Made by a program: the position numbers and the translations under genes. Below are positions 49,114-64,000 of a stretch of DNA of 64,000 nucleotides, piece by piece. Under the pieces are notes generated by a model that ran no database searches, was not told the origin of the DNA, and was given only the letters and a program-made list of their open reading frames with translations. Positions within the stretch are counted from its first letter, which is position 1; every line of letters starts with the position of its first letter. The stretch lies in contig NZ_AHCB03000012.1 of the NCBI RefSeq assembly GCF_000238335.3, forward strand, positions 664,007-728,006, read 5' to 3'. The stretch is from Pseudoalteromonas marina (GTDB lineage: Bacteria; Pseudomonadota; Gammaproteobacteria; Enterobacterales; Alteromonadaceae).

Positions 49114-49169
49114 CTGACAACTGACAACTGACAACTGACAACTGACAACTGACAACTGACAACTGACAA
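49114..49169. repeat. Eight tandem CTGACAA heptamers
   Basis: Eight perfect copies of the 7-mer CTGACAA lie 12 bp after the patatin stop and 90 bp before the end of the convergent SYLF gene. Such repeats change length by slippage; here it would affect only the intergenic region. Confidence 0.95.
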
Positions 49170-49260
49170 CCTATAAATTACGTTATGTTAAATTGTATTG
49201 TTAATAATAAAGCGAGCGTGATTATACAAATCAGCCCGCTTTTAGGAGAGTTATTAACGG

Positions 49261-49963: not shown

Positions 49964-51175
49964 ATGCTTGTTGCGTTGGTCGATACGTTAAAACAATTAA
50001 GATATCAAATTGCTCATCTTGATGACGGTACTCTTAATTCGGAATACCCAGAACTTTCAACCTTTATACAGCAAGTTGCCTTGACTGTAACTGAATCAGA
50101 ATCGGATCTTAAATTTTTATATCAATTTTTATATGTCTATGGCCGAAAATCAGAAGCAACATACAGTCGATTTAGAAACGAACTTGAACGGTTTTATTTA
50201 TGGTCGTGGTTAATTGCCGAAAAGTCAGTATTCGAATTAAAACGTGAAGATATTGAAGCCTATGTTGATTTTATGGTTGAACCCGATAAAAAGTGGGCAT
50301 CGACTTCTGTTCAGTGGCGTTATAAAGATGAGCAAGGGATTCGCCGATTAAATCAAAATTGGCGCCCTTTTATGCTTAAAGAATCTACGGCTAGCCAACA
50401 AACATTGTCGGCTATGTTCACAGCGCTTAATGTATTTTATAAATTTTCATTACTTGAAGAAAAAACGTTTGCTAACTTTGTACCAGTAGTGAAAAAAAAT
50501 AGCCCGTATTTAGTTGTGCAATCTCAAATTCAGATCCCAGACACATTAAGCGATATACAATGGGAGTATGTGTTTGGAGTAACTCGCGATTTATGTGAAC
50601 AAAACCCAGATTTAGAACGAAACTTATTTACCCTTGCGTGTTTAAAGGGATTGTATTTAAGAATTTCTGAATTATCTGAGCGACCTCAGTGGTCACCGGT
50701 TATGTCTCACTTTTGGCAAGATAACGACGGCTTTTGGTTTTTACGAATAATGGGTAAAGGTAACAAGCTACGAGATGTTACGCTAAGTGATGATTTTGTT
50801 GAATATTTAAAACGTTATAGATTATACCGAGGGCTGCCTGCCCTTCCCCGCGTTGATGAAGCCGAGCCACTGGTTCATAAAATTAGAGGCCAAGGTGGTA
50901 TGACTGTCAGGCAAATTAGGCGTTTAGTTCAACAAAGTTTTGATTATGCGCAACAATCATTGTTGGATGATGGTTTTAAAGATGATGCTGAACAATTAGG
51001 TGCAGCAACTGCCCATTGGCTGCGTCATACGGGAGCAACACACGATGCGCAAACGCGGCCACTTAAGCATTTATCTGAAGATTTAGGACATGCAAAAATT
51101 GCGACCACCGATCAAATTTATATTCAAACAAATATTAAAGAGCGAGCAAAATCCGGAGCTAAAAGGAAAATTTAA
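49964..51175 (+). CDS. Solitary tyrosine recombinase/integrase
   Basis: A 403-residue protein: an N-terminal SAM-like core-binding domain (about 45-170) and a C-terminal catalytic domain with R233 (YLRISELSE), K265, H351 and R354 (HWLRHTGATH), H376 (LGHAKI) and nucleophile Y386 (TTDQIYIQ). All catalytic residues are present. No prophage, cassette or transposon genes adjoin it, so it may be a domesticated recombinase. Its stop overlaps the antiporter start by one base. An imperfect palindrome lies 48 bp upstream. Confidence 0.9.
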   Translation: MLVALVDTLKQLRYQIAHLDDGTLNSEYPELSTFIQQVALTVTESESDLKFLYQFLYVYGRKSEATYSRFRNELERFYLWSWLIAEKSVFELKREDIEAYVDFMVEPDKKWASTSVQWRYKDEQGIRRLNQNWRPFMLKESTASQQTLSAMFTALNVFYKFSLLEEKTFANFVPVVKKNSPYLVVQSQIQIPDTLSDIQWEYVFGVTRDLCEQNPDLERNLFTLACLKGLYLRISELSERPQWSPVMSHFWQDNDGFWFLRIMGKGNKLRDVTLSDDFVEYLKRYRLYRGLPALPRVDEAEPLVHKIRGQGGMTVRQIRRLVQQSFDYAQQSLLDDGFKDDAEQLGAATAHWLRHTGATHDAQTRPLKHLSEDLGHAKIATTDQIYIQTNIKERAKSGAKRKI

Positions 51176-60918: not shown

Positions 60919-60938
60919 AGAGGGAACACATCATACTT
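60919..60938 (-). promoter_or_regulatory. Ter-like fork-arrest site 1
   Basis: On the minus strand it reads AAGTATGATGTGTTCCCTCT. It shares AAGTATG.TGT with E. coli TerB (AAGTATGTTGTAACTAA), including the G:C pair at position 6 that E. coli Tus uses to lock the fork. By the E. coli rule the blocking face is at the GTATG end, i.e. toward the origin on the right, so it would stop leftward forks. The gap 60650-61232 holds these three sites and no gene. Confidence 0.65.
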
Positions 60939-61100
60939 AATTTGCATCAATTGTAACCTAAACTTTACAGTAAAATTTAAAAAATTATAATCATGAGGAT
61001 TGTATTTATATCTATATATGCTAATGAAGCACAACCAAGTTTAAGCGGCCGACCTATAACATTAATAATATCTAATATAAATAGTAGCTTATATGTTAAA

Positions 61101-61120
61101 CACCAAAGAACACATCATAC
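61101..61120 (-). promoter_or_regulatory. Ter-like fork-arrest site 2
   Basis: On the minus strand it reads GTATGATGTGTTCTTTGGTG. It is identical to site 1 over GTATGATGTGTTC and in the same orientation, 182 bp away. It would stop leftward forks coming from the origin. Confidence 0.65.
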
Positions 61121-61209
61121 GAAATTTATAATAAATATTAATCTTGGCTACAGAAAATTAGTAAAAGGCTAGCTATCAAGGCAAAAGGTTAGTATCATTT
61201 CTAGTTAGA

Positions 61210-61228
61210 GTAAGATGTGTTCTTGGTG
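61210..61228 (+). promoter_or_regulatory. Ter-like fork-arrest site 3, overlapping the tus-like gene start
   Basis: On the plus strand it reads GTAAGATGTGTTCTTGGTG. It differs from site 2 by one substitution and one missing T, and is in the opposite orientation. By the same rule it would stop rightward forks. It lies on the ribosome-binding and start region of the tus-like gene, as TerB lies at the E. coli tus promoter, which suggests self-repression. Confidence 0.6.
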
Positions 61229-61232
61229 TGTG

Positions 61233-62108
61233 ATGGTCTCCAAAATAAAAATAAGAAGTCAGTTTGATTTAATGAGTGAGCTTACCTCATTGTTAATTGA
61301 TGAACTCAAACAATGTGAATACTCAAAAGCTGAATACTATAAATTGCCTGAGGTTCTTACTAGTGAAGAAAATAATGTCCCGCAAAGTATACCCGTTTCA
61401 AAACTAGCGGGAGATAATGCCCAACGAGCTATTCTTAATTCATTTACTGATATGTATACAAAGTCAGGGTTAAGCAGCCGAGTACTTAAAAGGCACCCTG
61501 GTTTGTTAGTTATAAAAAATGCTAATAAACAGGCACTCAATGATAGGATTAATCAGGTTAATAAAGCTAAAGCAGCATTTAAGGAATGTATTCTAAGTAT
61601 TGATAACAACGACGCTCGTTTTGAAGCTGTTCATAATGCAGTACCAAATTTAATTACTTTAGCTGCATACAGAAAAATACACAGTGAGAGTGAATCACCT
61701 TTTTCTGTTAGATTTACATGGATGCACAAACATGCAACTAAAACCCTCACTAAAAAGATGGCTCTTGAAATGTTGAGTAAATCTGCAGGTTATACAAATC
61801 CAAGAATGATCGATCAGCAAAAGTGGCAATCTCTGGTCGCTCAAGAACAAATGAGGATTGCTAGCTTAGGTGAAAAGGAAAAACTAAGAATAAGACGCCC
61901 TACTCGAGTTAGTCCTCAAGTAAATATCAGATACACTGCACAAAATCGTTACCACGTTAGTGCTGCATTACCATTTATATTAATAAACCCAGAGCCCGAT
62001 GTTAAAATAGGAACCTTACCAGATTACGAAAAGCCAGATAGTCATCCTCGAAAACGAGATTATGATTTTCTGGTTGATAGGCTTTACCTTGAACAAGTAA
62101 CAAATTAA
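61233..62108 (+). CDS. tus: Tus-like replication terminus site-binding protein
   Basis: About 291 residues, against 309 for E. coli Tus. It aligns with Tus through most of its length: KLPEVLTSEENNVPQSI, GDNAQRAIL, HPGLLVI, RINQVNKAKAAFKE, RFEAVHNAVPNLITLAAYRK, FSVRFTWMHKHATKTLTKK and KLRIRRPTRVSPQVNIRY. F130 and H134 match Tus F140 and H144, which form the pocket that captures the flipped cytosine of Ter. An in-frame ATG at 61215 lies inside the third Ter-like site; 61233 aligns better with the Tus N-terminus, but GAG before 61215 leaves both possible. It is convergent with the replication initiator gene. Confidence 0.9.
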   Translation: MVSKIKIRSQFDLMSELTSLLIDELKQCEYSKAEYYKLPEVLTSEENNVPQSIPVSKLAGDNAQRAILNSFTDMYTKSGLSSRVLKRHPGLLVIKNANKQALNDRINQVNKAKAAFKECILSIDNNDARFEAVHNAVPNLITLAAYRKIHSESESPFSVRFTWMHKHATKTLTKKMALEMLSKSAGYTNPRMIDQQKWQSLVAQEQMRIASLGEKEKLRIRRPTRVSPQVNIRYTAQNRYHVSAALPFILINPEPDVKIGTLPDYEKPDSHPRKRDYDFLVDRLYLEQVTN

Positions 62109-62116
62109 TTATGTTA

Positions 62117-62141
62117 AAAAGGCCACATTTAGTGGCCTTTT
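62117..62141. terminator. Bidirectional terminator between tus-like and rep genes
   Basis: AAAAGGCCAC and GTGGCCTTTT form a perfect 10-bp stem with a five-base loop. Confidence 0.92.
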
Positions 62142-62171
62142 AGTATTTGTATAACAAAGATAAATAAAAAA

Positions 62172-63386
62172 CTATTTTTCGACTATTTCTTCTATTTTAT
62201 CTTCATCTATTAAAACGGCATTTTCAACTATGCGTTTACCGCCTTGAATCTCTATACGTTTGTTATGCTTATTCAATGTAAGTATTTCATCACAAAACTG
62301 ATCTGACGGATGCATTTCATAGGTGTAATCTATAATATTACCGGTCTTATCGTCTTTAACATTGGTAATGCTGTATTCTGAAATGGCACCCTTTTCTATA
62401 AGGTCTTTCATGGTAGTTGTCATATCACGACGTAATGCTTTTAATTTGTTTTCTGTTATATTGTCGGTTGAGTATATCGAACCATATTTTTCCATAATAG
62501 AAAGTAATCTAAAATGATATGTTTTACCCGGTGCCGCGTAGCGCCATAAGTGATACAAGCGCAACATCATCCAACGTGATAAACCACGCTTTAGTTCTTG
62601 TGCACTGTTAAAATAATAACCTTTATATTCTAAGTTATCGATCATGTTATGAACGAAAGCATTTAAACAAGCAACACATTTAACATTACCGCCCTGACCT
62701 TTTTTCCCACTAAAATGCAAAGACGATAAAAAATTCATATTTGACTCGTAGAATGAATCATCAATATCTGAATTTTTAGTATCTGTTGCAGAGTATTTAA
62801 ATGATAGTTTTGACCCTTGAAGTGCTTCAAGTGATTCTTTAATTGCAGGATATGGCATGGACTGACCAACGGCTTTAAGTTCTTGTGCTAATTCGTTCAT
62901 CGAAAAAACAACGGCATATTGAATACCGGACTTAAAATTTATTTTTACTATTTTACCTTTTGAGGCTAAACGGATAAGAGCTCGTTCTACTTTTTCTTCT
63001 CTATCTGATGGCCATACTAGGTATTCAATATCTTCACCGTCTTTGCGGGTACTAACAACGGCGGGTGTTATTTTTATTTCGCCATCGTATAAAATACCAT
63101 CTACTTTTTCTGATATTTTACGTGTAATGATTGTTTTTTTAGGCGCTTCTTCTAATGGAAGTTTTTTATGACCCGAGCGAACAAAACGTCCCCATAAATC
63201 GTAATGATTAAATGTATTTGAATAGGCACGTAAACCATGAGCTGCATTCTCAATAGAAATGCGAACATCTTTGTTATCTGTAAATAGTGCTAAACTTTCA
63301 TTATCAATTGCACTTTCCACCCCGTGAATTTGGCCTCTTAGTGTATCAGGCAAGTTATCTACCGAGATGTTGACCTTTCGGCTCAT
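62172..63386 (-). CDS. Plasmid-type replication initiator protein of the chromid
   Basis: About 404 residues, basic, resembling plasmid replication initiators. It has an N-terminal extension and two probable winged-helix regions (e.g. EKVERALIRLASKGKIVKINF, RWMMLRLYHLWRYAAPGKTYHF, MEKYGSIYSTDNITENKLKALRRDM). The region upstream holds GATC-rich iteron-like repeats and DnaA boxes, as expected for an initiator next to its origin. I chose ATG 63386, with GGA ten bases upstream; ATG 63401 is also in frame. The family name (RepB-like) is an inference. Confidence 0.8.
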   Translation of the reverse strand: MSRKVNISVDNLPDTLRGQIHGVESAIDNESLALFTDNKDVRISIENAAHGLRAYSNTFNHYDLWGRFVRSGHKKLPLEEAPKKTIITRKISEKVDGILYDGEIKITPAVVSTRKDGEDIEYLVWPSDREEKVERALIRLASKGKIVKINFKSGIQYAVVFSMNELAQELKAVGQSMPYPAIKESLEALQGSKLSFKYSATDTKNSDIDDSFYESNMNFLSSLHFSGKKGQGGNVKCVACLNAFVHNMIDNLEYKGYYFNSAQELKRGLSRWMMLRLYHLWRYAAPGKTYHFRLLSIMEKYGSIYSTDNITENKLKALRRDMTTTMKDLIEKGAISEYSITNVKDDKTGNIIDYTYEMHPSDQFCDEILTLNKHNKRIEIQGGKRIVENAVLIDEDKIEEIVEK

Positions 63387-63457
63387 TGTTCTTATTTCCA
63401 TTTATTATTGCGACAGCTAATAACAACACATAAAACAAAAAAAGTTAAATGTTTAAG

Positions 63458-63512
63458 TTAGTATAAAAGTGATCTGGCTCTAATTAATCTACTCAGATCA
63501 GTTTTATACTAA
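63458..63512. promoter_or_regulatory. 19-bp inverted repeat upstream of rep, probable operator
   Basis: TTAGTATAAAAGTGATCTG (63458-63476) and CAGATCAGTTTTATACTAA (63494-63512) are inverse copies with one mismatch and a 17-bp gap. A third TTATACTAA stands at 63546-63554. The repeat lies 72-126 bp before the rep start, where initiators often bind as dimers to repress their own gene. Confidence 0.6.
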
Positions 63513-63662
63513 GTACTAGCATTTTTCTTTAATTTAAGATCATTATTATACTAACACGTGCATTTCAAATCTCATTTTTACTAACTCAGTTATAAATTTG
63601 TCCACTGCTATGCTAAATTTAGACTGCAAAGCACGACAAATTTGCTCTTTTTCATACTAGCC

Positions 63663-63930
63663 TGTGGATAAGGACTTAGTTAGTTAGCATAGATCTGATC
63701 TGTACTTACTACAGATCAGATCTATACCAATTGATACCTGCTTTTTCTACATTGAACGGTGCATAACATTCTAATTTACTTAGTAAAAGCATGATCTTAA
63801 TCGACCTATTTGTTTATAACCTTAAGGGTAAGCTGTGCATAACTATAAAATTTATTTAGCAGTTAATAAAATGCTGATCTGTTAGTTATTAAAGATCTGA
63901 TCTTAACCACGTATAATGCTGATCTAACTT
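63663..63930. other. Probable replication origin with DnaA boxes and GATC-rich iterons
   Basis: Perfect DnaA box TTATCCACA on the minus strand at 63663-63671, and a second, TTATGCACA, at 63834-63842. Iteron-like units with TGATCT: a perfect 13-bp inverted pair AGATCTGATCTGT / ACAGATCAGATCT (63691-63723), ATGATCTTAA (63791), GCTGATCTGTTA (63873), AGATCTGATCTTAACC (63893) and GCTGATCTAAC (63918). The GATC sites suggest Dam control as in Vibrio chromosome 2. AT-rich DNA follows to the window end, and the origin may extend beyond it. Confidence 0.75.
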
Positions 63931-64000
63931 TTTATAGTTTATTTATATTTATCATATAGTTAAACTACACTTTTAAACTCTTAACCTTTATTACCTTATA

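Follow-up and report, generated by a model that had tools for sequence, protein, structure and literature searches.

Does the chromid of Pseudoalteromonas marina carry, next to its replication origin ori2, a replication fork trap that would allow copying in one direction only? This question is raised by the 64,000-bp stretch analysed here (the window), in which a homologue of the terminator protein gene tus lies between Ter-like sites and a plasmid-type initiator gene, repA, with a putative ori2 beyond it. From the sequence comparisons below, it is considered likely that the Tus homologue and the Ter-like sites form a polar trap beside the probable ori2, in which a leftward fork would be arrested at the minus-strand sites about 2.3 kb out, with copying likely running rightward only and ending at the cluster. 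According to the accessible sections of two earlier papers (Xie 2021, PMC7858055; Galli 2019, PMC6549158), it has already been published that tus adjoins ori2 and that the chromids are unidirectional or, in one clade, bidirectional; blockage of the counterclockwise fork has also been suggested there, and a trap on the ori2 side exists in the literature as speculation. The one-way chromids mentioned in the initial annotation are real, having been established by marker frequency in other strains (Xie 2021, PMC7858055, in the sections available). The same sections report a failed ter search for P. tunicata, the available part of a 2023 review (PMC10331603) gives the site a question mark, and in the accessible part of the open PubMed Central (PMC) literature searched no identification of Ter sites in Pseudoalteromonas was found. 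Two questions were not settled in those texts: the presence of Ter sites on unidirectional Pseudoalteromonas chromids, and the number of forks, one or two, that leave ori2. As far as the searches show, the sites, their genus-wide consensus, the trap on the main chromosome and the relocation of Ter sites described here are new.

The window is the final 64 kb of contig C11 (728,006 bp) in an assembly of 11 contigs. As one end of C11 falls in repeat-rich DNA upstream of repA and the other about 160 bases before a parA match, the contig is probably the entire chromid, opened at ori2. The features of the locus are as follows.

60923-60936, minus strand: outer Ter-like site (GTATGATGTGTTCC), motif match with at most one mismatch; predicted block to leftward forks from ori2
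61107-61120, minus strand: inner Ter-like site (GTATGATGTGTTCT), motif match with at most one mismatch; predicted first barrier to a leftward ori2 fork
61210-61223, plus strand: tus-proximal Ter-like site (GTAAGATGTGTTCT); predicted block to a fork returning round the replicon
61215-62108, plus strand: tus homologue (PF05472, NCBIfam NF002810, PDB 1ecr)
62172-63401, minus strand: chromid initiator gene repA, named from its identity to the L151 gene and the annotation of genes in that place
63402-64000, no strand: putative ori2 with repeats of the GATCTGATC/AGATCAG type, running on to parA at the start of C11

The Tus homologue was recognised clearly, as had been annotated initially: it gave a near full-length match to PF05472 (311 bits, E 7e-93), exceeded the cut-off of NF002810 (326 bits against 323) and matched the protein of the E. 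coli Tus-Ter crystal, 1ecr, in a PDB comparison (E 5.5e-28). With the stricter TIGR02648 model (rep_term_tus) the score was 120, under the cut-off of 178. The true tus start is probably codon 6 or 7 (61230-61233), because the alignments of many relatives begin only about there. The residues F140, H144 and L150, which we take to be those of the C6-lock pocket, were kept in all 41 readable chromid Tus proteins (row L149 was unreadable). All 33 tus loci found in named genomes (51-93% identity) belong to Pseudoalteromonas, and Tus was encoded in 107 of the 108 genomes of the genus. Support was also obtained for the initiator and the putative origin proposed beside these elements: repA was 97.8% identical to the gene at the same place in L151, the genes at that place in L148, L149 and L152 carry the annotation 'replication protein A', and the repeats of the putative ori2 were located in 63456-63925. 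Pfam and NCBIfam scans of the RepA protein gave no match. The function of repA with ori2 has been demonstrated in two other species (Xie 2021, PMC7858055, in the sections available).

Several other Tus proteins were seen. A second, more distant Tus is present in G035, G043 and G066 (on contig C3 in each) and in other genomes. The Tus on a 149-kb plasmid of P. spongiae (L150) differs at all three presumed lock-pocket positions, and no Ter-like site of the present type was found in the 10.8 kb of that locus at the mismatch levels scanned.

The motif of the sites can be written (TAA)GTAWGATGTGTTCYT; the blocking-side half of the E. coli Ter is kept and the other half is not. The three sites were the sole matches to GTAWGATGTGTTCY with at most one mismatch in the 64 kb, compared with a mean of 0.05 and a maximum of 1 in 100 shuffles of the window, although the pattern was fitted to the window's own sites and the independent test is provided by relatives. 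A looser motif (up to three mismatches) gave 14 matches against 12.1 expected in the window, and thus no enrichment, and an E. coli-type Ter consensus gave four chance-level matches elsewhere in the window and none near tus. Over 101 sites from 34 tus loci (33 from the named genomes plus the window) the core was again GTAWGATGTGTTCY, mostly with TAA or similar before it and T after it; these sites were gathered with a motif of the same form at up to two mismatches, so that part of the invariance within it follows from the way they were collected. The first G of the motif, presumably the G:C(6) lock base pair of Ter, was present in 101 of 101 sites, and the motif used for finding them contains that G. 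C(6) is termed crucial in the accessible part of PMC8707476. The E. coli site TerB (seen in L086; GTATGTTGTAACTA) lies directly before tus in the same orientation as the plus-strand site of the window. It shares GTA.G with the sites and agrees with the motif at 8 of 14 bases, all inside the first nine, which we assume to be the blocking half. Agreement with the E. coli Ter consensus therefore does not extend over the full length; the permissive half diverges, but the layout does not, and this divergence would explain the failure of the published search with the E. coli consensus.

The arrangement of the sites was conserved in the relatives. Written as strands in the tus frame, the order '--+' was found in 33 of the 34 tus loci, the remaining one being '-+' in L014, whose contig is cut there and whose genome has a further site at the end of another contig. 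The outer '-' site was retained in 33 of 34 loci although its spacing varies (-219 to -5154 bp from tus). The layout was also retained in the divergent chromids (P. piscicida, NC201, P. xiamenensis and THAF3). Two sites facing the origin and a third, inverted one had been annotated initially; their orientations are right provided that GTATG marks the blocking side, and they were kept in 34 of 34 loci. Column conservation was 0.98 for the inner '-' site and 0.95 for the '+' site, against 0.49-0.63 for the surrounding non-coding DNA. In a whole-genome motif search covering the genomes of 30 of the 33 named loci, all 30 matched, 27 of them with exactly five sites, and the reversed control gave one match overall; in 21 of the 30 the sites away from tus shared one contig, '-' then '+' every time. 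The motif GTAHGATGTGTTC was found in 108 of 108 genomes of the genus (a set that overlaps with the 30), with 601 sites, compared with 7 when the pattern was reversed, and exactly five sites in 56 genomes. In the rest of the order, 14 of 196 genomes matched, with 15 sites against 15 reversed, which is the level of chance. As these counts beat the reversed pattern and the DNA between the sites is poorly conserved, support for the motif does not depend on the way it was fitted.

Among the tabulated chromids, 25 have sites on the ori2 side, and in every one of them exact '-' sites (2-6) are followed, towards ori2, by one '+' site (18 chromids) or none (7 chromids); one distant site in G102, which probably wraps round the replicon, was omitted from this order. 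It could be argued that such sites are only autoregulatory operators of tus, with the geometry of a trap as a by-product. All 34 loci do have a site no more than 24 bp from the aligned tus start, and 12 of 18 further loci have one no more than 30 bp away, much like the E. coli TerB; tus autoregulation is described in the available part of PMC10331603. Operators alone are nevertheless a highly improbable explanation, as exact sites occur up to 14 kb from tus, and in the P. piscicida type (P. piscicida and NC201) the '+' site is downstream of tus (+970) and the start of tus is occupied by a '-' site, yet seen from ori2 the order is unchanged. The same motif, moreover, brackets the dif1 site on another replicon.

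This second set of sites was located on contig C4, the main chromosome of the source genome.

C4 1415240, minus strand: main-chromosome Ter-like site, perfect match
C4 1434203: dif1-like site, between the two C4 Ter-like sites
C4 1447260, plus strand: main-chromosome Ter-like site, perfect match

The sampled guanine-cytosine (GC) skew of C4 was positive to 1.42 Mb, near zero around dif1 and negative from 1.55 Mb, with one stretch at 1.48 Mb showing a skew of +0.03. Twenty-eight genomes were tabulated (26 two-contig genomes, the one-contig G033 and the source genome), and exact main-chromosome sites were present in 25 of them. Where an exact site away from the tus region had a dif on the same contig, it was trap-oriented in 50 of 50 cases (46 on main chromosomes, the other 4 on the G073 and G129 chromids); for one further site, in G132, the dif was not found. 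All 22 exact pairs bracket a dif and are 23-144 kb wide (21 around main-chromosome dif1 and one chromid pair of G073). One-sided sites in place of an exact main-chromosome pair were seen in G075, G115, G130 and G132. The bracketing of dif1 fixes the predicted blocking polarity of the motif, because under the opposite polarity dif1 could be reached by neither fork, and reversed polarity was rejected on this ground. The predicted polarity on the ori2 side is supported in turn, because the same motif forms an inward dif1 trap in 21 of 21 exact main-chromosome pairs. The tus gene of the window was the single match to PF05472 in the whole genome. We lean towards the view, on these alignments and motif positions, that one chromid-encoded Tus polices both replicons, by blocking the leftward chromid fork and by supplying the dif1 trap, and that relocation of Ter sites from ori2 to the antipode made the chromid of one clade two-way. 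If this is true, the supply of Tus by the chromid for main-chromosome termination could help to bind the replicons together. The genome G033 was considered as a natural knockout lacking Tus and was rejected as such; its one-contig assembly probably misses the chromid, because a MinC match over the cut-off is also absent.

In the mechanism proposed, Tus would bind the Ter-like sites and arrest forks with the polarity seen in E. coli. Both forks would start at ori2, the leftward one halting at the '-' sites and the rightward one rounding the chromid, passing the '-' sites and halting at the '+' site. The same protein would confine main-chromosome termination to the dif1 region, movement of the Ter sites would have switched the mode of chromid replication, and the '+' site may, like TerB in E. 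coli, double as a repressor site for the tus gene at whose start it lies. We infer from the site orientations that the trap would enforce one-way copying of a replicon from whose origin a leftward fork would also depart. The GC skew of the source chromid was positive in all 19 stretches sampled (eighteen of 20 kb each plus the window, together 424 of 728 kb), in some of them weakly. An alternative, regarded as unlikely but the most serious of those weighed, is that ori2 fires a single rightward fork and that the Ter cluster serves only as a terminus, where the returning fork is stopped and over-replication avoided. Theta plasmids are mostly one-way, and the number of forks at ori2 was left open in the accessible sections of Xie 2021 (PMC7858055). 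The '+' site alone would suffice for this purpose, and yet the redundancy is on the wrong side, as each of the 25 chromids has 2-6 exact '-' sites turned towards ori2 but no more than one '+' site. If the returning fork were halted at the '+' site, moreover, copying of tus and repA would fall to a leftward fork.

A two-way clade offers a natural experiment, as its chromids have two-armed skew, lack ori2-side sites and carry Ter sites around dif2. The skew of the G073 chromid (1,618,489 bp) and the G129 chromid (1,598,238 bp) was positive in one half and negative in the other; these are the two of the clade's four genomes in which it was sampled. Their sites were located as follows.

G073 chromid, 825066 (-) and 926045 (+): Ter pair around dif2 at 862562
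G073 chromid, 304188 (-): lone site
G129 chromid, 737392 (-) and 849851 (+, one mismatch): Ter pair around dif2 at 819264

In G126 a Ter pair brackets a dif on contig C124 (replicon not assigned), and in G092 one '-' site is correctly placed relative to the dif on contig C15. No Ter-like 13-mer (up to two mismatches) was found in the 13-20 kb around tus in G073, G129, G126 or G092, and this lack of ori2-side sites in the four genomes speaks against a single-fork origin with a simple terminus. The Tus proteins of the four form one clade. From chromid size, skew and the place of dif2, we take these genomes to be the bidirectional clade of Xie 2021. At the position aligned to R198 of the E. coli Tus, two proteins of this clade (L156 and L193) have Ile and the other 39 readable Tus have Arg, although the alignment around this position is uncertain.

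In the accessible sections of Xie 2021 (PMC7858055), the bidirectional clade is explained by insertions between ori2 and dif2, which moved dif2 away from ori2. It is accordingly conceivable that the replication mode is set by the position of dif2, or by DNA insertions, and that the Ter sites only travel along. The window contains a candidate dif2.

49166-49193, plus strand: dif2-like site (chance expectation 0.00), with the Ter cluster about 12 kb to its right

This explanation would suit G090, in which 410 kb separate dif2 from tus and the insert has mostly negative skew, and G070, which has one '-' site beyond dif2. It is considered improbable, as dif2 lies at anything from 12 to 125 kb upstream of tus in 14 tabulated one-way chromids, and the genes between dif2 and Ter (FAD, ppsA, ydiA and DAHPS) are positive on the plus strand at 4-fold sites, so that copying seems to pass dif2; three of the four are minus-strand genes, and coding bias may contribute.

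The 4-fold-site GC skew was compared between the one-way set and the two-way clade (n=4), gene-matched and on the coding strand. The DAHP synthase gene (DAHPS), left of Ter, had a skew of -0.08 in the one-way set (n=56) and +0.25 in the two-way clade. For repA, in the segment between Ter and ori2, the values were 0.04 (one-way, n=58) and 0.05, and this equality does not favour a single rightward fork. For tus they were -0.16 (one-way, n=58) and 0.005, a shift that is suggestive in running against the single-rightward-fork prediction; the test from tus and repA is a weak one, which leaves the single-fork alternative some room. The parA and helicase genes showed little change between the sets. 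Taken together, the 4-fold skew is suggestive of a leftward fork copying the ori2-Ter segment, as the trap with two forks would predict; as proof of two forks it was rejected.

Several observations weigh against the trap or its extension to the main chromosome. In the 4-fold comparison, parB shifted by 0.25 where no shift was expected, the shift of rmuC, about -0.1, has no predicted cause, and plus-strand genes right of ori2 were also negative, so that coding-strand bias is mixed in. The two-way genomes (n=4) are a single clade, and the one-way set includes close relatives, at least one record that is probably a duplicate (L148/L211) and G090. Three of the 28 tabulated genomes (G090, G073 and G129) are without an exact Ter site on the main chromosome, and 7 of the 25 chromids are without an exact '+' site, G061 and G115 having one with a mismatch. 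In 4 of the 18 further loci (G057, G061, G062 and G134) a '-' site at the tus start lies 79-88 bp from a '+' site and nearer to the origin than it; such a back-to-back pair may be regulatory. The G090 chromid has two exact '-' sites beside tus, and yet about 400 kb to the left has mostly negative skew, in a tract that begins near 980 kb, runs over the contig end and stops near 80 kb. Its dif2 block (FAD, ppsA, ydiA) lies near 1.06 Mb and its DAHPS-Ter-tus-repA block at 148-154 kb, with DAHPS keeping a skew of the rightward type. G090 was not accepted outright as a clean counter-example, given a second RepA-like gene and the insert between the dif2 and Ter blocks. The fork trap proposed initially is supported by the orientation of the array in 34 of 34 loci and 25 of 25 chromids, although G090, with its conflicting skew, and the 4 of 18 loci do not fit it neatly.

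The second RepA-like gene of G090 is at L218 15739-16749, about 16 kb of the chromid, with 27% identity. Because this gene is present and the dif2 block is split from the Ter block, we would guess that the G090 chromid is a replicon fusion.

The arrangement resembles known traps in part. It has in common with the E. coli Tus-Ter system (type II) the Tus homologue, the directional sites and a site that, like TerB, lies at the start of tus and in the same orientation. Edwardsiella tarda has a type I trap of two sites, which is alike in its inward pair around dif on the main chromosome (PMC8707476, PMC10331603, in the sections available). Unlike in both, tus is here on another replicon than the dif1 trap, and a second trap adjoins an origin; compared with E. 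coli TerB, the permissive half differs, 8 of the 14 core bases being common. Plasmid R1, which uses the Tus of its host, has opposed Ter sites (terRL and terRR) adjoining its origin, here matched by sites within a few kb of ori2. The two R1 sites are reported, in the available part of PMC10331603, to enforce unidirectional copying. In contrast to the two sites of R1, there are 2-6 exact '-' sites here, with tus beside the origin, on chromids of about 0.7-1.35 Mb.

Some further Ter-like sequences were observed. Eleven Ter-like cores (ATGATGTGTTCTT) occur at L203 6241-8068 (G081) and seven at L208 7473-8977 (G136), all '-' in the tus frame, without the first G of the motif and on the origin side of tus. 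A degenerate '+' site near parA was seen in the source genome and its closest relative, at the start of L048 (right of ori2) and at tus +2847 in L002, with two mismatches; it is probably inert, because it would oppose rightward forks if active. An Rfam scan of the window from 60 to 64 kb gave no match, and a promoter scan around tus gave matches at chance level only. A gene for a XerC/XerD-like tyrosine recombinase (49964-51175, plus strand), scoring under the cut-offs of the XerC and XerD models, lies about 0.8 kb from dif2 in the window, in L151 and in L152, and is perhaps a chromid-specific helper of dimer resolution.

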